Below the pieces are notes generated by a model. It saw only the letters and a program-made list of their open reading frames with translations, searched no databases and was not told the origin of the DNA. From positions 642-64,641 of the forward strand of contig NZ_JASKLR010000027.1 of the NCBI RefSeq assembly GCF_030124325.1: a DNA stretch of 64,000 bases, read 5' to 3'. Below are positions 9,132 to 57,070 of this stretch, piece by piece. This DNA comes from Sinorhizobium sp. 8-89. Lineage in GTDB: Bacteria > Pseudomonadota > Alphaproteobacteria > Rhizobiales > Rhizobiaceae. Numbering within the stretch: the first letter of the stretch is position 1; each line of letters opens with the position of its first letter. The translations under genes and the position numbers were made by a program.

Positions 9132-9841
9132 CGACGCAGAATCCCGAGAGCGGAGATTTTCGCCGCGATGAAGTGATCGCCGGGGAATATGTGCTCGGCG
9201 TTCTGTCGGCGGAGGACCGCCGCAAGGTCGAGGCGCGCATGGCATCGGACCGGAATTTCGCCGCCATGGTCGATCGCTGGCAGCACAATCTCGCCTCCTT
9301 CGATGATGCCTATGAAGCGGTTAGGCCGCCAGCCCATGTGCTTGCTGCCGTGGAGCGCAGCATTTTTCCGCCTGCTCCGGTGGCCGCTCCTCCGGTCGGC
9401 TTCTGGAACTCGCTTCTTCTCTGGCGCAGCCTCGCCATCGCTTCGCTTGCTGCCGTCGCGATCATGGGCGCGTCGATGGCTGGCCTCTTCAGCGAGCCGC
9501 AAAGTCAGCCGCTGGTGGCGGAGCTTTCCGGCGAAGGCAATACCATCAATCTGGTTGCCCGTTTCGACAGGACATCCGGCAGTCTGAAGCTGACGCCGGT
9601 GGCGGCGCGGCAGCCGGAGGAGAAGTCTCTCGAACTCTGGCTGATCGAGGGCAGCAATCCGGCGATCTCGCTGGGAGTACTGCCGCAGTCCGGCGAAGGC
9701 GAACTCCTGGTGCCGCCCGAAATGCGGACGAAGTTCATCGAGGACGCGACCCTTGCCGTCAGTGTCGAGCCGCTTGGCGGCTCGCCGACCGGCTTACCGA
9801 CGGGTCCCGTCATTGCCTCCGGCAAGGCTCGCCATCTCTAG
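9128..9841 (+). CDS. Anti-sigma factor, RskA-like, single-pass membrane protein
   Basis: The 237-residue protein has an N-terminal cytoplasmic anti-sigma region (EYVLGVLSAEDRRKVEARMA, then WQHNLASFDDAYEAVRPP), one transmembrane segment near residues 100-120 (LAIASLAAVAIMGASMAGLF) and a periplasmic RskA domain with the typical LELWLIEG...SLGVLP pattern. It should hold the upstream ECF sigma factor inactive until an envelope signal triggers release. No ZAS-type HxxxCxxC zinc motif is seen. ATG at 9128 overlaps the sigma stop. Confidence 0.9.
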   Translation: MTTQNPESGDFRRDEVIAGEYVLGVLSAEDRRKVEARMASDRNFAAMVDRWQHNLASFDDAYEAVRPPAHVLAAVERSIFPPAPVAAPPVGFWNSLLLWRSLAIASLAAVAIMGASMAGLFSEPQSQPLVAELSGEGNTINLVARFDRTSGSLKLTPVAARQPEEKSLELWLIEGSNPAISLGVLPQSGEGELLVPPEMRTKFIEDATLAVSVEPLGGSPTGLPTGPVIASGKARHL

Positions 9842-19677: not shown

Positions 19678-21102
19678 GTGGCGAAAATCCTCAATCCGGA
19701 TATCTGCGTGGTCGGCGGCGGTGCGGCAGGCCTGTCCGTGGCTGCGGGTGCCGCGGCCTTCGGCGTGCCGGTCGTCCTTGTCGAGCGCGGCCGAATGGGT
19801 GGGGATTGCCTGAACTTTGGCTGCGTGCCGTCGAAGGCGCTGATTGCGGCCGGGAAACATGCACAGGCGATCCGAGCAGCGGGAGAATTCGGCATCGCAG
19901 CAGGCGAGCCGGTCGTCGACTACGAGCGACTGCAGGCGCGGGTCCACGCGGTCATCGGCGCAATCGCGCCGCATGATTCCGCCGAGCGTTTCGAGAGCCT
20001 CGGCGTGAAGGTCATCGCCGACACGGCCCGGTTCGTCGACGACAGAACGGTCGCGGCCGGCGACCTTCTCATCCGGGCGCGGCGCTTCGTGATCGCCACC
20101 GGCTCGTCGCCGGCCATTCCCGCAATCCCAGGGCTGGTGGAGGCGCCGTACCTTACCAATGAGACACTCTTCGATCTGAAGCGGCTGCCGGAACACCTCG
20201 TCATTGTCGGCGCCGGAGCGGTCGGCATGGAGATGGCGCAGGCATATCGCAGGATCGGGGCACGCGTGACGGTCGTCGAGGCCGGCAAGGCGCTTTCGAG
20301 CAGCGATCCGGAACTGGCAGCGATCGTCCTGGAGGCGGTCCGCGCCGAGGACACCGTGCTACACGAGCAAACCGCCATCCTGTCGGTCGAGCGGCAGGCG
20401 GGCGGCGTCCGGCTGCTTTGCGAGAATGCGAAAGGGCGGTTCGCGGTCGATGGCAGCGATCTTTTGCTGGCCGCGGGCCGTGTCCCCAACCATGCTTCTC
20501 TCGACCTCGGCGCCGCCGGTATTCGCCACGACGCGAAGGGGATTGCCGTTGGCACGGGCATGCGTACAAGCAATCGCCGCGTCTATGCGATCGGCGATGC
20601 CGCAGGCGGCCTGCAGTTCACCCATGTTGCGAGCTACCATGCGCGGCTCGTGCTGCAGCAGATCCTGTTCCGAATGCCGGCGCGCGAAGACCGCGACATT
20701 GTTCCGAGGGTGACGTTTACCGATCCGGAGCTTGCGCAGGTCGGCCCTGGCGAGGCAGAGGCGCGGGAAAAGTTCGGCCGGGTCGACGTCGTCCGCTGGG
20801 ATTTTTCCGCAAATGATCGCGCCCGCACCGACGGTCTCGACCGAGGGCTGATCAAGATCACGGTCGGCCGGCGCGGACGGATCATCGGGGCGGCGATCGC
20901 CGGTCCCGGCGCCGGAGAGATGATCAACGGCTTTGCGTTTGCCATCGCCAATCGGCTGACACTCAAGCATTTTCGCGGCTATGTGGCTCCGTATCCGACC
21001 TTGTCCGAGATTGGAAAACAGGCATCGATCTCCTATTATGCCCCCATGGCGCGAAGTCCGCTCGTCCGGTCGGTAATCGGAATGCTGCGGTATTTCGGCT
21101 AG
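19678..21102 (+). CDS. FAD-dependent pyridine nucleotide-disulfide oxidoreductase (dihydrolipoyl dehydrogenase/mercuric reductase-like)
   Basis: A 474-residue class I flavoprotein. An N-terminal FAD Rossmann motif (VVGGGAAGLSVAAGAA) is followed by the redox-active pair in GGDCLNFGCVPSKAL, the NAD(P) motif VIVGAGAVGMEMAQ and a GDAAGG second FAD motif. The C-terminus has PYPTLSEIGK, but the usual HxHPTLSE histidine pair is replaced by VAPYPTLSE, so this is neither a standard E3 subunit nor a mercuric reductase with a C-terminal Cys pair. The start is a GTG. It is cotranscribed with the TVP38 gene. Confidence 0.88.
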   Translation: MAKILNPDICVVGGGAAGLSVAAGAAAFGVPVVLVERGRMGGDCLNFGCVPSKALIAAGKHAQAIRAAGEFGIAAGEPVVDYERLQARVHAVIGAIAPHDSAERFESLGVKVIADTARFVDDRTVAAGDLLIRARRFVIATGSSPAIPAIPGLVEAPYLTNETLFDLKRLPEHLVIVGAGAVGMEMAQAYRRIGARVTVVEAGKALSSSDPELAAIVLEAVRAEDTVLHEQTAILSVERQAGGVRLLCENAKGRFAVDGSDLLLAAGRVPNHASLDLGAAGIRHDAKGIAVGTGMRTSNRRVYAIGDAAGGLQFTHVASYHARLVLQQILFRMPAREDRDIVPRVTFTDPELAQVGPGEAEAREKFGRVDVVRWDFSANDRARTDGLDRGLIKITVGRRGRIIGAAIAGPGAGEMINGFAFAIANRLTLKHFRGYVAPYPTLSEIGKQASISYYAPMARSPLVRSVIGMLRYFG

Positions 21103-30900: not shown

Positions 30901-31622
30901 TCCTTGTAATAGCGTTCCGCGTCGGCGGCCGTCGTCGCCGCCTCGCCAAGCATGTCGTAGGAATAACGGAAGCCCTTCTGTTCGAGCGCGCGCGAGCGGC
31001 GCAGCGCCTCGTCGATCGTCTCGCCGGTGACGAACTGCTCGCCCATCATCCGCATCGCCATGTCGACGCCGCGGCGGATCACCGGTTCGCCGCAACGGGC
31101 GATGAGCCGCGTCAGCGCCGCGGCAAGGCTGCGGTCGTTGACGGTCGAGGTCAGCTTGCCGGTGACGACGAGACCCCAGGTCGCGGCGTTGACGAAGAGC
31201 GAGCGGCCGCCGCCCAGATGCGACTTCCAGTCGCCATCGGAGATCTTGTCGCGGATCAGCGCGTCTCGGGTTGCCGTATCGGGAATGCGCAGCAGCGCCT
31301 CCGCAAGGCACATCAGCGCAACGCCCTCCTGACTCGACAGCGAATATTCGTGCACGAGCCCTTCCACGCCCGAGCCTTTGTGCTTGGCGCGGAGTGCTTC
31401 GATCAGCTTGCGGGCGGTTTTGGCGGCGGCGTCGCGGGTTTCCTTGGGCAGCGTCGCCGCCTCGATCAGCGCCGGCAGGCACTCCGTTTCCGGGCGACGA
31501 TAGGCAGCCGTGATTGCCTGACGGAGCTTGCTTTGCGGCCGGACCGGCGGCGCGAAGTCGGCAAAGGGCGCCGGTGCTGCATCGGCAGATGGGGGGGATT
31601 TTTGAGGCTTGGTCTGGCTCAT
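27915..31622 (-). CDS. putA: Bifunctional proline dehydrogenase / delta-1-pyrroline-5-carboxylate dehydrogenase
   Basis: PutA oxidises proline to glutamate using FAD and NAD+ and channels the intermediate. The 1,235-residue protein starts MSQTKPQKSPPSADAAPAPF. It has a helical arm, a proline dehydrogenase barrel (roughly 180-490; RLVKGAYWDAEI, GRNNLDRPCRIYAPVG) and an aldehyde dehydrogenase domain (roughly 560-1000; SPWNFPLAIFTGQ, ETGGQN with the catalytic Glu, GQRCSALR with the catalytic Cys). A C-terminal ALDH-like extension follows. It lacks the N-terminal ribbon-helix-helix of E. coli PutA, so it should not repress its own gene. No PutR-type Lrp regulator is adjacent in this window. Confidence 0.97.
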   Translation of the reverse strand: MSQTKPQKSPPSADAAPAPFADFAPPVRPQSKLRQAITAAYRRPETECLPALIEAATLPKETRDAAAKTARKLIEALRAKHKGSGVEGLVHEYSLSSQEGVALMCLAEALLRIPDTATRDALIRDKISDGDWKSHLGGGRSLFVNAATWGLVVTGKLTSTVNDRSLAAALTRLIARCGEPVIRRGVDMAMRMMGEQFVTGETIDEALRRSRALEQKGFRYSYDMLGEAATTAADAERYYKDYEAAIHAIGRAAAGRGIYEGPGISIKLSALHPRYSRAQAARVMGELLPKVKALALIAKKYDIGLNIDAEEADRLELSLDLLEELCLDSDLSSWNGMGFVVQAYGKRCPFVLDFIIDVARRSGRRIMVRLVKGAYWDAEIKRAQLDGLEDFPVFTRKIHTDVSYVACARKLLSATDVIFPQFATHNAQTLATIYHMAGKDFQVGKYEFQCLHGMGEPLYDEVVGRNNLDRPCRIYAPVGTHETLLAYLVRRLLENGANSSFVNRIADPEVSVDELIADPVEIVRSMPVMGAKHDQIALPAKLFGEARTNSAGVDLSNEANLASLTEALKASAATAWTSVPQLATGAASGETRPVVNPGDHRDIVGSVTETSYDDAKRAARLAREAAEAWAAVPPTERAACLDRAADLMQARMPTLLGLIAREAGKSLPNSIAEVREAIDFLRYYAEQTRRTLGPAHRPLGPIVCISPWNFPLAIFTGQIAAALVAGNPVLAKPAEETSLIAAEGVRLLHEGGIPANVLQLLPGDGRVGAALVAAPEIAGVMFTGSTEVARLIQAQLADRLSPAGRPIPLIAETGGQNAMIVDSSALAEQVVADVIASAFDSAGQRCSALRVLCLQEDIADRTLAMLKGALHELNIGRTDRLAVDVGPVITAEAKGIIEKHIDAMRGLGRKVEQIGLASETDLGTFVPPTIIELQKLSDLKREVFGPVLHVIRYHRDDLDRLVDDINATGYGLTFGLHTRLDETIAHVTSRVKAGNLYVNRNIIGAVVGVQPFGGRGLSGTGPKAGGPLYLGRLVTTAPVPPQHSSVHTDPALFDFAKWLDGRGARTGAEAARNAGSSSALGLELELPGPVGERNLYALHPRGRILLVPETEAGLYHQLATALATGNSVVIDAASGLQPSLKSLPQSVSLRVSWSKDWAADGPFAGALVEGDAERIRDVNKAIAALPGPLVLVQAASSEEIARNPDAYCLNWLLEEVSTSINTAAAGGNASLMAIG

Positions 31623-39575: not shown

Positions 39576-39650
39576 AGAGCAATTCCAGAAAAAGTGCGTA
39601 ACGGCTTTCCGTCCGGAACTGTGTCTTTCAATGACACGATGAAATGAACC
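39576..39650. repeat. Second family of intergenic repeat, copy 2
   Basis: AATTCCAGAAAAAGTGCGTA, then ACGGCTTTCCGTCCGGA, matching the unit at 36096 across about 40 bases. It ends beside the fucU stop codon. Confidence 0.6.
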
Positions 39651-40078
39651 TAGGGGTAAATGACGCCCTTGCGCAGAATGACGTTGCCGTAGAGGCGCGG
39701 CTCGCTGGTCTGCACCACCGTGTGTGCCGCCTTTACGCGCGGATAGAAATCGGCGCCTAACAGCGGCACGACGTTGCGCGCCGGCTCATGCTTGCCGCAG
39801 CATTCGATGATTTCACGATGCACCGGGTCGAGCGCGTGCTTGTCCTGTTTGACGGTGGCGCGGAAGATCGCCTCGGGTACGAAATCGTCGATCGGCAGAA
39901 CACTCAGGATCGCATCGAGCACCGGGATGAGGCCATGTCCGTCGAGGCGGACCAGGCGACGCGCGTGTTCCTGGCCAGGATAATTTCCGTCGACGAGCGC
40001 GATCTCGTCGCCGTGACCCATTGCTCTCAACGCCGAGAGAAGTTCCGGGCCGAGCAGCGGGTTTATTCCTTTCAGCAT
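39650..40078 (-). CDS. fucU: RbsD/FucU-family sugar mutarotase
   Basis: A 142-residue protein with the RbsD/FucU decamer-type motifs: MLKGINPLLGPELLSALRAM, HGDEIALVDGNYPG with the conserved Asp/His region, and the C-terminal YGNVILRKGV. FucU interconverts sugar anomers. Its start overlaps the stop of the ROK regulator gene (TAATG), so the two are translated from one mRNA. The preferred sugar is not predictable from sequence. Association with the fructose cluster suggests it prepares an uptake substrate. Confidence 0.9.
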   Translation of the reverse strand: MLKGINPLLGPELLSALRAMGHGDEIALVDGNYPGQEHARRLVRLDGHGLIPVLDAILSVLPIDDFVPEAIFRATVKQDKHALDPVHREIIECCGKHEPARNVVPLLGADFYPRVKAAHTVVQTSEPRLYGNVILRKGVIYP

Positions 40079-41310
40079 TAACTAAGCTCCTTGAAGAGGA
40101 CATTAGTGTCCAAGAGATAACGGGAAAACAACGGGAGGCTTGCACCGCCGATCGCCCGGGCGTGGCTTCCGACGGCGCCTTCCACAAGATCCGGAACCGT
40201 CACGCCCTGCAGGTCGAGCGTTTGCAGCGCCCGGCGCGTCGCCGTAAGGATGCGTGCCCGAACCCAGGGCGGGAAACCACCATCGATGACTGCCGCCGAG
40301 AAATCGATGATCGAGGCGGCGGAGACCACGGCTTGGGCAAGCGCCGCGGCCGTGTCCTGGATCCAGATCTCCAGCGGTTCGCCGAAGTCGATCCAGTCAT
40401 CTGCGGAATACCAGAGCGGCTGCGGATCGATGCCGCGCTCGCGCAGCAGGTTTTCAAGCACGAAGACCGAAGCGATCTTCAGCAATTGCGTGGATTTGCC
40501 ATCCTTGCCCGAGACCGGCAACGGGCCGACCGCTCCGGCGGTCCCGGTCCGTCCGGAAAAGAGGGCGGAGTTGAGGACGATACCGCCGCCGATGAACGAG
40601 CCGATGTAGAAATAGACGAAGTCGGGATAGCTGGAGCCGACGCCAAAGGCGAGTTCCGCTCCACAGGCGCTCGTTCCGTCGTTCTGGAGAAAGACCGCAT
40701 GGGGTACCCGCGCGGCAACGGCCGCCTGCAGGTTCGTATCACGCCACCGATCCATTTCCTCCCGCGGCGCGCCGACTTCCTCGGCCCAGTTCCAGAGCTC
40801 GAAGGGGGTCGCAATGCCGACGCCGGCGATGCGCGCGCGCTGCTCGGGCGCGAGTTGCCGCTCGAGCTTCTCGATGCCGCCGATGATGAAGGCGACGAGG
40901 TCCTCGGGCAGCGGATAGGTGTGGATCTGGTGCAGATGCAGCCGGATATTGCCGACGAAATCCATCAGCACCAAGTCGGCGCTGCGGCGGCCGATCTTCA
41001 CGCCGAACGAATAGACCGCATCCGGATTGAGGCGCATCGGGATCGAGGGCTGGCCGACGCGGCCACGTACCGGAGCGCCGCGGATCAAGAGGCCATCGCG
41101 TTCCAGCGCGCGCATGATGACGGAGACGGTCTGCGCGGAGAGGCCGGAGCGTCGGGCGATATCCGCTTTCGAGAGGCTGCCGTGGCGGCGGACCAGCGAC
41201 ATGACGAGCCGTTCGTTATAGGCGCGCACGCGTGTCTGGTTCGCTCCTCCGCTTGGGTCGACCACATCCGGTTGCGTCGATCCCCCGCGGGAATCGTGTG
41301 TTATCGACAT
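40078..41310 (-). CDS. frcR: ROK-family transcriptional regulator of the fructose cluster
   Basis: A 410-residue protein with an N-terminal winged helix (about 30-90; LVMSLVRRHGSLSKADIARR, then SGLSAQTVSVIMRALERDGL) and a ROK sugar-kinase-like domain. The usual ROK zinc-binding CxCGxxGC is absent: the corresponding part reads FSGRTGTAGAVGPLPV. It is divergent from frcB, the position of frcR in S. meliloti. It should repress or activate frcBCAK in response to sugar. It starts at 41310 (MSITHDSRGGS). Confidence 0.9.
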   Translation of the reverse strand: MSITHDSRGGSTQPDVVDPSGGANQTRVRAYNERLVMSLVRRHGSLSKADIARRSGLSAQTVSVIMRALERDGLLIRGAPVRGRVGQPSIPMRLNPDAVYSFGVKIGRRSADLVLMDFVGNIRLHLHQIHTYPLPEDLVAFIIGGIEKLERQLAPEQRARIAGVGIATPFELWNWAEEVGAPREEMDRWRDTNLQAAVAARVPHAVFLQNDGTSACGAELAFGVGSSYPDFVYFYIGSFIGGGIVLNSALFSGRTGTAGAVGPLPVSGKDGKSTQLLKIASVFVLENLLRERGIDPQPLWYSADDWIDFGEPLEIWIQDTAAALAQAVVSAASIIDFSAAVIDGGFPPWVRARILTATRRALQTLDLQGVTVPDLVEGAVGSHARAIGGASLPLFSRYLLDTNVLFKELS

Positions 41311-41333
41311 GCCACCGTCTCCTCCCGTTGGCA

Positions 41334-41440
41334 CATTGCATGATTCCTTAAATCGGGAACCGATTTGAGGGCAAATCACGCTACAAATTCAAAGTTCTAC
41401 AGCGACCCTTGCGCGTCTGATCGGATGCGAGGCGCTGTAG
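41334..41440 (+). repeat. RIME-like intergenic repeat, copy 6
   Basis: GCATGATTCCTTAAATCGGG with AACCGATTT palindrome arms, then TTGCGCGTCTGATCGGATGC and GAGGCGCTGTAG. It occupies the first third of the 385-base divergent gap between frcR and frcB. Confidence 0.78.
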
Positions 41441-41695: not shown

Positions 41696-42721
41696 ATGAA
41701 GAAAACAGTTCTTTCTGCCGCATTCGGTGCGCTCGCACTTGGCGTGGTCTTCGCTTCGCCGTCGCAAGCCGCCGACGTTTCCGCCTGCCTCATCACCAAG
41801 ACCGACACCAATCCCTTTTTCGTGAAGATGAAGGAAGGTGCCACCGCCAAGGCCCAGGAACTCGGCATGACGCTGAAATCCTATGCCGGCAAGATCGACG
41901 GTGATTCGGAAAGCCAGGTCGCAGCAATCGAGACCTGCATTGCCGATGGTGCCAAGGGCATCCTGCTGACGGCGTCCGACACCAAGGGCATCGTGCCACA
42001 GGTGCAGAAGGCTCGTGAGGCCGGCTTGCTGGTCATCGCGCTCGACACCCCACTCGAGCCGCTCGATGCCGCTGACGCGACCTTCGCGACGGACAACCTG
42101 CTCGCCGGCAAGCTGATCGGCCAGTGGGCGGCCGCGACGCTGGGTGACGCCGCCAAGGATGCCAAGGTCGCCTTCCTCGACCTGACGCCGTCGCAGCCGA
42201 CGGTCGACGTGTTGCGCGACCAGGGCTTCATGATCGGCTTCGGCATCGATCCGAAGGATCCGAACAAGATCGGTGACGAGGACGACCCGCGCATCGTTGG
42301 CCACGACGTCACCAACGGCAACGAAGAGGGTGGTCGTACGGCTATGGAGAACCTCCTGCAGAAGGATCCGACCATCAACGTCGTGCACACGATCAACGAG
42401 CCGGCCGCCGCTGGTGCCTATGAGGCGCTGAAAGCCGTCGGCCGCGAAAAGGACGTGCTGATCGTTTCCGTCGATGGTGGCTGACCGGGCGTCAAGAACG
42501 TGGCCGACGGCGTCATCGGCGCGACGTCGCAGCAATATCCGCTGATGATGGCCGCGCTCGGCATCGAGGCGATCAAGAAATTCGCAGACACCGGCGAAAA
42601 GCCGAAGCCGACCGAGGGCAAGGACTTCGTCGACACCGGCGTTTCGCTCGTCACCGACAAGCCGGTTTCAGGCGTCGAGTCGATCGACACCAAGGTCGGT
42701 ACGGAAAAGTGCTGGGGTTAA
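41696..42721 (+). pseudogene. frcB: Fructose ABC transporter periplasmic binding protein, interrupted by an in-frame TGA
   Basis: The frame from 41696 encodes a signal peptide ([20 protein letters not shown]) and a type I sugar-binding protein closely resembling S. meliloti FrcB, 341 residues to the TAA at 42719-42721. Codon 263 (42482-42484) is TGA where the family has Cys (DGG-Cys-PGVK). The frame before and after is intact and in register, with no frameshift. Translation as written gives 262 residues, missing the last helix-strand elements and part of the second lobe. A single-base change from TGC, or a base-call error, explains it most simply. Ribosome site GGGAGGG precedes the ATG. Confidence 0.88.
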
Positions 42722-42917: not shown

Positions 42918-44000
42918 ATGGGCGAGCCAAACACAGCCGCACAATCATCCCAGGAATTCGAAAAGGTCCTGGTCAACAGTTCGACGGAGGTGGCGTCCTT
43001 CGATACGCACGACAAGACGCCGCTTCAGAAGCTGCAGCATTTCCTTCATTCAAGCCCGGCCGCCGTTCCCCTGATCGTGCTGGTCCTGTCGCTGATTACC
43101 TTTGGCGCGATCCTTGGCGGCAAGTTCTTTTCCGCCTTTACGCTGACGCTTATCCTGCAGCAGGTGGCGATCGTCGGTATCGTCGGCGCCGCGCAGACGC
43201 TTGTCATCCTGACGGCCGGCATCGATCTCTCGGTCGGCGCCATGATGGTGCTGTCGTCGGTGGTCATGGGTCAGTTCACCTTCCGTTACGGCCTGCCGCC
43301 CACGCTGTCCGTCCTCTGCGGCCTCGGTGTCGGAGCGCTCTGTGGCTTCATCAACGGCACGCTTGTTGCACGCATGAAGCTGCCGCCGTTCATCGTAACG
43401 CTCGGCATGTGGCAGATCGTGCTCGCCTCCAACTTCCTCTATTCCGCCAACGAGACGATCCGCGCCCAGGATATCTCCGCCAACGCGCCGATCCTGCAGT
43501 TCTTCGGTCAGAACTTCCGCATCGGCAACGCCGTCTTCACCTATGGCGTCATCGTCATGGTACTTCTCGTCGGCCTGCTCTGGTACGTTCTGAACCGCAC
43601 GGCCTGGGGACGCTATGTCTATGCAGTCGGTGACGACCCGGAAGCGGCGAAGCTGGCCGGCGTCAACGTCAAGCAGATGCTCGTCACCATCTACACCCTG
43701 TCCGGCCTCATCTGCGCGCTTGCAGGCTGGGCGCTGATCGGCCGCATCGGCTCCGTCTCGCCGACGGCGGGTCAGTTCGCGAATATCGAATCGATTACCG
43801 CCGTGGTGATCGGCGGCATCTCGCTGTTCGGCGGCCGTGGCTCCATTCTTGGCATGCTCTTCGGCGCATTGATTGTCGGTGTTTTCTCCTTGGGGCTTCG
43901 CCTCATGGGCACGGATCCGCAATGGACCTATCTCTTGATCGGCTTGCTGATCATCATCGCCGTCGCAATCGACCAGTGGATCAGAAAGGTAGCAGCCTGA
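42918..44000 (+). CDS. frcC: Fructose ABC transporter permease
   Basis: A 360-residue inner-membrane permease of the ribose/fructose (BPD_transp_2) family with about ten helices. The N-terminal 50 residues are soluble. AAQTLVILTAGIDLSVGAMM is the conserved family segment, and VIGGISLFGGRGSILGMLFG is the C-terminal motif. The start MGEPNTAAQ follows GGGAGGAG. Its stop overlaps the frcA start (TGATG). Confidence 0.94.
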   Translation: MGEPNTAAQSSQEFEKVLVNSSTEVASFDTHDKTPLQKLQHFLHSSPAAVPLIVLVLSLITFGAILGGKFFSAFTLTLILQQVAIVGIVGAAQTLVILTAGIDLSVGAMMVLSSVVMGQFTFRYGLPPTLSVLCGLGVGALCGFINGTLVARMKLPPFIVTLGMWQIVLASNFLYSANETIRAQDISANAPILQFFGQNFRIGNAVFTYGVIVMVLLVGLLWYVLNRTAWGRYVYAVGDDPEAAKLAGVNVKQMLVTIYTLSGLICALAGWALIGRIGSVSPTAGQFANIESITAVVIGGISLFGGRGSILGMLFGALIVGVFSLGLRLMGTDPQWTYLLIGLLIIIAVAIDQWIRKVAA

Positions 44001-44782
44001 TGGCACAGGAACCCATTCTCACCGCTCGCGGTCTCGTCAAGCGCTACGGTCGCGTGACCGCTCTCGACCACGCCGATTTCGATCTCTACCCGGGTGAAAT
44101 CCTGGCTGTGATCGGCGATAACGGCGCCGGCAAGTCCTCGATGATCAAGGCGATCTCCGGCGCCGTCACGCCCGACGAGGGCGAGATCCGCCTCGAAGGC
44201 CAGCCCGTGCATTTTCGCTCGCCGATGGAAGCCAGGAAAGCCGGCATCGAAACCGTCTATCAGAACCTCGCCTTGTCGCCGGCGCTCTCGATCGCCGACA
44301 ACATGTTTCTCGGCCGCGAGATTCGTAAACCGGGCATCATGGGCAAGTGGTTCCGCTCGCTGGACCGCGCGGCCATGGAAAAACAAGCGCGGGCAAAGCT
44401 CTCCGAACTCGGCCTGATGACGATCCAGAACATCAACCAGGCGGTGGAGACCCTGTCGGGTGGCCAGCGCCAGGGGGTCGCCGTCGCCCGCGCCGCAGCC
44501 TTCGGTTCCAAAGTGGTGATCATGGACGAACCGACGGCGGCGCTCGGCGTCAAGGAAAGCCGGCGGGTGCTGGAACTGATCCTCGACGTTCGCCGCCGCG
44601 GTCTGCCGATCGTGTTGATCTCGCATAACATGCCGCACGTCTTCGAGGTGGCGGACCGGATCCACATCCACCGCCTCGGCCGGCGACTCTGCGTCATCAA
44701 TCCGAAGGACTATACCATGTCGGATGCGGTGGCCTTCATGACCGGTGCCAAGGCGCCGCCAGGCGAGGCCCTTGCCGCATGA
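44000..44782 (+). CDS. frcA: Fructose ABC transporter ATP-binding protein
   Basis: A 260-residue single ATPase domain. It shows the Walker A GDNGAGKSSMIK, Q-loop YQNLALSP, signature LSGGQRQGVAVARAAA, Walker B KVVIMDEPTAALGV and switch His in LISHNMPHVF. Most sugar importers of the ribose class have two fused ATPase domains; this single-domain form is the FrcA type and presumably dimerises. It overlaps frcC at its start and frcK at its end. Confidence 0.95.
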   Translation: MAQEPILTARGLVKRYGRVTALDHADFDLYPGEILAVIGDNGAGKSSMIKAISGAVTPDEGEIRLEGQPVHFRSPMEARKAGIETVYQNLALSPALSIADNMFLGREIRKPGIMGKWFRSLDRAAMEKQARAKLSELGLMTIQNINQAVETLSGGQRQGVAVARAAAFGSKVVIMDEPTAALGVKESRRVLELILDVRRRGLPIVLISHNMPHVFEVADRIHIHRLGRRLCVINPKDYTMSDAVAFMTGAKAPPGEALAA

Positions 44783-45399
44783 ACATGCATGCCCTGCGGG
44801 ATGAGATCCTCAAGCGGGCGGCCGGCGCCGCCCGTTTCATCGTTGCCATAGCCGGTCCACCGGGCGCCGGCAAATCGACGCTCGCTGAAGCGCTTGCCGA
44901 GGTTCTCGTGGAAGTCGGCGAGAAGGCGGCGGTACTGCCGATGGACGGCTTCCACATGGACAATGCCGTTCTCGAAGAAAAGGGACTGCTTGCCCGCAAG
45001 GGCGCGCCCGAAACCTTCGACTTCAGGTCGTTTCTTTCGACGCTCGCTGCCGTTGGCGCCAATGACGGCGAAGTCCTCGTGCCGATCTTCGACCGCTCGC
45101 GCGAGCTGGCAATCGCCTCTGCGCGGGTGATCGCGCCGGAAACGCGCATCGTTCTCGTCGAAGGCAACTATCTTATGCTCGACGAAGCGCCGTGGAACAG
45201 ACTCGAAGGGGCCTTCGACCTTTCGATTTTCATCGATCCCGGCCTCGATGTGGTCGAGCAGCGATTGCTGAAACGCTGGTTCGATCACGGCTACGACGAC
45301 GAGACGGCGAGGGTGAAGGCGTTCGGCAACGACATCCCGAATGCCCGGCGCGTTATAGGCAGCCGCCGGTCGGCCGACCTCGTCATCCAGGATTTCTGA
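44779..45399 (+). CDS. frcK: P-loop kinase FrcK, uridine/pantothenate kinase-like
   Basis: A 206-residue protein with Walker A AGPPGAGKSTLAEAL and a PMDGFHMDN motif typical of the YggC/uridine-kinase-like family, then VLVEGNYLMLDE. In S. meliloti, frcK is the last gene of the fructose operon and is not needed for transport as measured, so it may phosphorylate an internalised sugar or nucleoside. ATG overlaps the frcA stop (ATGA). Confidence 0.9.
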   Translation: MNMHALRDEILKRAAGAARFIVAIAGPPGAGKSTLAEALAEVLVEVGEKAAVLPMDGFHMDNAVLEEKGLLARKGAPETFDFRSFLSTLAAVGANDGEVLVPIFDRSRELAIASARVIAPETRIVLVEGNYLMLDEAPWNRLEGAFDLSIFIDPGLDVVEQRLLKRWFDHGYDDETARVKAFGNDIPNARRVIGSRRSADLVIQDF

Positions 45400-56463: not shown

Positions 56464-57070
56464 TTGCTCACCCTCGCAGCCGGAGCACGCGTTCTGCTGC
56501 CGTTTCGTCGCTAAATCCCGTTCGACCGCCCCGATGTCCCCGCCAGAGCATCCCGTTTTTCAAGTGAAATCACTGAAGCGGGCAAACGCTTTAGAATCAA
56601 AGTGCTACCGCCCTTTGTCCGTTCATTTGAACGCACGGCGCTCTCGGGGCATCGTTCGGGCCTCTCTCAGGAGTTGGCGCACGTCCCCTGGTCGAATCCC
56701 GCGCCTCTCCAACCGCCACCGTCTCGTGCTCCACTCCCCGCAGAAGTCGATTGTTCCCCACTTCGATCCGTCTCATGAACGGCTGGCTGACGCTCGCCAA
56801 CTCTGCCGAACTGCGCCGGTCCCGAGACGACCGCCCGGAACACTTTTCCTGAGCAGGTGTTTGGCATGTGAGCGCGGCGCGGCGGCATGATGGACAAAGG
56901 CGCAAATTCATGGACCCGAAGACTGAGATAGTGTTGCACACCGCCTGTTCTGGGGCTCGGCACATGGCAACTGATGGCCTGAACGAGCGCTACTCGTCGC
57001 TGGGGACGCTTCCCTATAGCTGAGCATCAAGTCCCGGCCGTGATGGACAGAGCATCAGGAGCAACAACCG
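56464..57070. other. 607-base intergenic region without a credible gene
   Basis: Holds a diverged repeat at 56547-56645. The rest shows only frames of low quality on both strands. Ribosome site CAGGAG near 57056 belongs to the truncated gene at 57071. Confidence 0.6.
56547..56645 (+). repeat. Diverged RIME-like repeat, copy 7
   Basis: AGAGCATCCCGTTTTTCAAG, with AGCGGGCAAACGCTTTAGAA, then AATCAAAGTGCTACCGCCCT and CGTTCATTTGAACG before GCACGGCGCTCTC. The right half follows the order of copies 1-6 (AAAGTGCTAC..CCTTTG..GCGCT), but the palindromes are degenerate. A related but separate subfamily is possible. Confidence 0.5.

Follow-up and report, generated by a model that had tools for sequence, protein, structure and literature searches.

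The window, a stretch of 64,000 nucleotides from a draft genome of Sinorhizobium sp. 8-89, contains a fructose ABC transporter locus in the order annotated in S. meliloti Ak57, frcBCAK with divergent frcRS, and the gene order given in the available part of PMC10433430 agrees with it. On the forward strand, frcB (41696..42721) is followed by the genes for the permease FrcC (42918..44000; order compared with that of Ak57), the ATPase FrcA (44000..44782) and the kinase FrcK (44779..45399). These three neighbors of frcB, which the first-pass annotation had described as intact, all have open frames, and each was identified by family search. The reverse strand carries frcR (40078..41379), an intact, divergent gene for a ROK-family regulator with the same kind of support, and a putative frcS (39650..40078), an open frame for an RbsD/FucU-type mutarotase that is named by position only, after the Ak57 order and the portion of PMC10433430 at hand.

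The gene that occupies the frcB position within the frcRS-frcBCAK locus encodes a periplasmic sugar-binding protein of the same class as that of S. meliloti and shares 88.1% DNA identity with frcB of strain Ak57, from which it differs by a stop at codon 263. Its translation proceeds for 262 residues to VSVDGG, reaches a TGA (42482..42484), and continues with PGVKNVADG... to a normal TAA end. Under the standard code, frcB has no complete open reading frame, and the interruption is confined to codon 263. As the first-pass annotation had proposed, the frame is open on both sides of the TGA to its usual end, giving 341 residues if the TGA is read through; as written, translation stops after residue 262, and residues 263-341 are orphaned. 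By translation and comparison with relatives, the 78-codon tail (42485..42718) keeps the old frame and has diverged little. With the TGA taken as Cys, residues 32-301 match the Pfam family Peripla_BP_4 (6.8e-42), while no NCBIfam model reached its cut-off on FrcB. No second copy of frcB was found in the genome, the next-best match to FrcB having 33% identity. In some relatives, an additional frcB-like gene occurs with an identity of 63-66% (G009:C411:4070-5092 and G035:C8:120612-121613); none was found in this genome.

Conservation of Codon 263 and Age of the Stop

A search of other genomes listed 33 frcB orthologues at 88-99% identity, covering all 32 same-genus genomes and one genome of the same family, and none of them has an internal stop. 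The 29 loci returned out of these 33 (at least 88% identity), the window's own being left out, all have TGC, a Cys codon, at position 263, and so do all 80 named loci taken as the best 80 of 579 relatives. TGA at this codon was thus found in 0/29 orthologues and 0/80 named loci. These counts bear out that the TGA stands where relatives have Cys, a claim that homologues with another residue here could have overturned. Cys263 is invariant across a 34-row alignment in which the window is represented by its TGA-as-Cys translation, and none of the other three cysteines of FrcB (31, 81 and 339) varies within the 30-sequence set. Among the relatives read, which do not include another genome of the species and from which some searches left out near copies of this genome, the stop is private to this genome and lies in an otherwise conserved gene.

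That the TGA falls on a Cys codon is not surprising in itself, judging from the codons of the nearest relative's frcB, since TGA can arise in that gene by 9 single-base substitutions, 4 of which strike its 4 Cys codons (4 of 84 when all one-base nonsense changes are counted).

The same nearest relative (L010) differs from the window's frcB at 47/1026 bases. With the stop set aside, the differences amount to 42 synonymous and 3 non-synonymous codons; 43 of 46 base differences lie before the stop, and 3 after it. When changes were assigned to branches with nine other relatives as outgroup, the window branch received 8 synonymous and 1 non-synonymous changes and the sister branch 19 and 2, with 36 and 24 codons, respectively, left unassigned. 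Neither the synonymous and non-synonymous counts nor the tail, which has not drifted, gave any sign of relaxed selection on frcB, and therefore the stop is either very young or not real. To judge from these substitutions, the gene looks to have been under selection until very recently. The undrifted tail fits a very young mutation and an assembly error equally.

Real Mutation or Assembly Error

The best reading of the locus, and a moderately probable one, is a recent C-to-A nonsense allele at base 42484 that would inactivate frcB. Its main competitor is an error of consensus or assembly, with the frcB of the living strain intact and Cys263 in place; we regard it as a possible explanation, if a rather doubtful one. 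In its favor, frcB otherwise looks fully selected, and the genome is a draft assembly (103 contigs totaling 7,059,251 bases, 99.97% complete) in which 400 kb of contig C1 hold three 10-N gaps and a single-base deletion, and a contig break interrupts the formate dehydrogenase gene fdoG.

In the window, 54 ORF rows (ORFs of at least 150 aa) matched the relative G019 with an identity of at least 85%, none of them beyond position 56,475. Stops were present in 12 of the 54 rows, and ten were located. Apart from that of frcB, the located stops lie upstream of the start of the window ORF, at the ORF's own end, or in ORFs that overlap a longer gene; the two remaining rows, 9313-9837 and 30967-31500, overlap longer ORFs on the opposite strand. 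No likely gene other than frcB among these 54 matches has an interior stop. Because no further such gene was found among these matches, a changed genetic code or a general UGA suppressor is, as far as tested, not indicated.

On contig C1, the comparison with genome G014 covered 400 kb, in which 289 ORFs of at least 120 aa (98,214 codons) passed the filter. The listing is noisy, with many stops in ORFs of 120-250 aa, which were taken as antisense shadow ORFs and not resolved singly. For ORFs of at least 250 aa, six stops were listed, all within the first 33 codons of the stop-to-stop ORF (one of them read at the sequence level), and these six may precede the true start. Four frameshift rows were listed in the same size class; the three that were read comprise two at gene borders and one single-base deletion with respect to G014, at about base 254,290 in a 958-codon ORF, presumably of the EAL type from its motif. 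This confirmed lesion is either real or an assembly error. The reverse comparison, of this genome's ORFs against G014, gave a similar mix with six frameshift rows. The assembly has rare lesions, each real or an error, and errors are not rife, since one clear lesion was confirmed among the 289 ORFs of C1. This low count, in which the one lesion is itself possibly a real mutation, weighs against an error at base 42484. Furthermore, a substitution is an unusual kind of error in a short-read consensus, and nonsense alleles of this kind are common in strains; for these two reasons, a real mutation is favored over an error.

Predicted Consequences for the Receptor and Fructose Uptake

If the C-to-A change at base 42484 is real, it would recently have turned the conserved Cys263 codon into a stop, and translation would end after 262 residues, so that this two-lobed sugar-binding protein would lose its C-terminal part. 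The read-through protein was modeled from an alignment with a mean pLDDT of 88.2, the mean being at least 91 in every block of ten residues between 261 and 340, and the closest solved folds are ribose-binding-type proteins. In the model, residues 263-341 contain the end of a helix (262-270), a strand (276-279), a second helix (282-299) and a C-terminal stretch. Because this part is missing, the second lobe of the truncated FrcB should be incomplete, and we infer that the protein would fail to fold or to function. With FrcB inactive, FrcC and FrcA, though intact, would lack their receptor, and the strain would then take up fructose poorly. A real base at this position thus comes with a simple predicted phenotype, weak growth on fructose.

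Such a loss need not be lethal. According to the available part of PMC10433430, S. meliloti mutants in frcA or frcC grow to an intermediate extent on fructose, sorbitol and mannitol; when smoK is lost as well, they do not grow on these substrates. Since mutants in frcA or frcC alone still grow in part on fructose, the loss of frcB would, by analogy with S. meliloti, be tolerated if the Smo transporter is present.

Some working receptor could still be made if the stop were leaky, through a near-cognate tRNA at the UGA-C found here, or if translation reinitiated in the tail. In bacteria, UGA stops are leaky when C follows, and in-frame restart codons occur at 42500 (GTG) and at 42545 and 42548 (ATG). 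However, stop-codon read-through usually amounts to a few percent, no Shine-Dalgarno-like stretch was seen by eye in the 20 bases before the restart codons, and a reinitiated fragment of 57-73 residues, having no signal peptide, would be expected to stay in the cytoplasm. Partial rescue by either route is improbable.

Selenocysteine Machinery and SECIS Tests

TGA is also the selenocysteine (Sec) codon, and the first-pass annotation had considered Sec at position 263 formally possible, with a search for selA, selB and selC as a check. All three genes were found, as was selD. Judged by curated cut-offs, every one of the four exceeds its own: 75.1 bits against 47 for selC, 425 against 242 for selB, 598 against 268 for selA, and 425 against 125 for selD. 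A tRNA-SeC with anticodon tca was also called by ARAGORN. In addition, the genome encodes a Sec-type formate dehydrogenase, FdoG, with an in-frame TGA at the Sec site of its gene. This gene is split by contig ends (G000:C18:77038-78438 and G000:C28:54935-56536), and for this reason neither half reaches the family cut-off. One of the two contigs carries selD, and the other selA, selB and selC; the two halves and the sel genes are probably a single locus broken in the assembly. Within the genus, the Sec-type formate dehydrogenase is patchy: it was found in 19/33 genomes, this one included (E up to 1e-100), with one TGA each. Since the draft genome encodes the four sel genes and an enzyme of this type, a test of Sec decoding at frcB was warranted. 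In that case, UGA 263 would be decoded by the Sec machinery of the genome to give a Sec-containing FrcB. The position of the TGA on a conserved Cys adds to what favors this explanation, and substrate-binding selenoproteins are known from other families (SaoB, SaoX and BtuF, in the available part of PMC13188914).

A GCCGA/UCGGC stem downstream of the TGA had also been pointed out, and it is present: bases 42503-42507 pair with 42516-42520 to form a 5 bp hairpin (42503..42520) with an 8-nt loop that starts 23 nt after the TGA. The loose bSECIS model, as given in the accessible text of PMC13188914, calls for a stem of 4-16 bp, a loop of 3-9 nt with G in its first two positions, a spacing of 16-37 and an energy of -7.5 or lower. 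In our own implementation of these rules, with a contiguous stem, the frcB hairpin passes (energy -10.9, spacing 23, loop CGGCGUCA, 5 bp). However, the same rules are satisfied after 1039 of 3178 codons in ten window ORFs, including 9 of their 27 Cys codons, and in 22/29 of the Cys-coding frcB orthologues, 20/29 of which have a stem of at least 6 bp and 11/29 an energy below that of the window. Because the rules are met so widely in background codons and Cys-coding orthologues, the hairpin is best regarded as ordinary inherited coding sequence, in keeping with what the first-pass annotation had said of it.

A stricter comparison was possible with fdoG. The stretch after the fdoG TGA is nearly invariant and forms a hairpin that has a GUU loop and whose stem contains a bulged U, and the motif (bulged U, G-first loop) is present in 19/19 fdoG loci and absent at frcB. 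A covariance model of the fdoG SECIS, built from these 19 loci, scored three fdoG loci at 73-81 bits. It found no match at the frcB TGA up to E = 10, either in the locus with filters off or over the window with default filters, a result that bears on the fdoG type only, the sequences behind the model being almost identical. The best window match to the model (20019-20057, forward strand, 16.7 bits, E 0.066) is probably due to chance. Rfam returned no score near the gathering threshold at the end of frcB, and one tRNA in the whole window.

With an ordinary hairpin and no TGA in the 29 and 80 relatives read, Sec at this codon is unlikely. We know of no redox chemistry in a FrcB-type sugar receptor. 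Altogether, of the earlier suggestion the machinery was found, while the comparative support and the fdoG-type element were not, and we consider decoding of UGA 263 as Sec extremely improbable. A newly arisen selenoprotein, in which the pre-existing hairpin would be weakly used by SelB to yield a little full-length Sec-FrcB, is no more credible than that.

Comparison with Known Systems

The interrupted frcB reflects an ordinary nonsense change of one base, either real or introduced in base calling, and very probably no new selenoprotein is involved. The simplest reading put forward earlier, a point mutation from TGC to TGA or an error in base calling, is the best supported: the relatives read have TGC, and the SECIS and comparative tests speak against Sec. 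The case is a warning. Even in a genome with a full Sec system, a TGA that replaces an invariant Cys codon and is followed by a hairpin passing the loose rules can still look like ordinary nonsense, and here it does so after comparison with Cys-coding relatives and with a background count.

Two further known systems resemble the locus. Bacterial selenoproteins of the FdoG-like Cys/Sec-pair type, which have a bSECIS, share with frcB an in-frame TGA at a conserved Cys, and the genome that carries frcB has the Sec machinery. Unlike them, frcB has no TGA in the relatives read and no SECIS of the fdoG type, and its hairpin is not associated with TGA. The second system is that of young pseudogenes, single-site nonsense alleles of which are known in bacterial sugar-uptake genes. 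Like frcB, these carry a single changed base while the rest of the gene and its operon is intact and conserved, and no difference between them and frcB was recognized.
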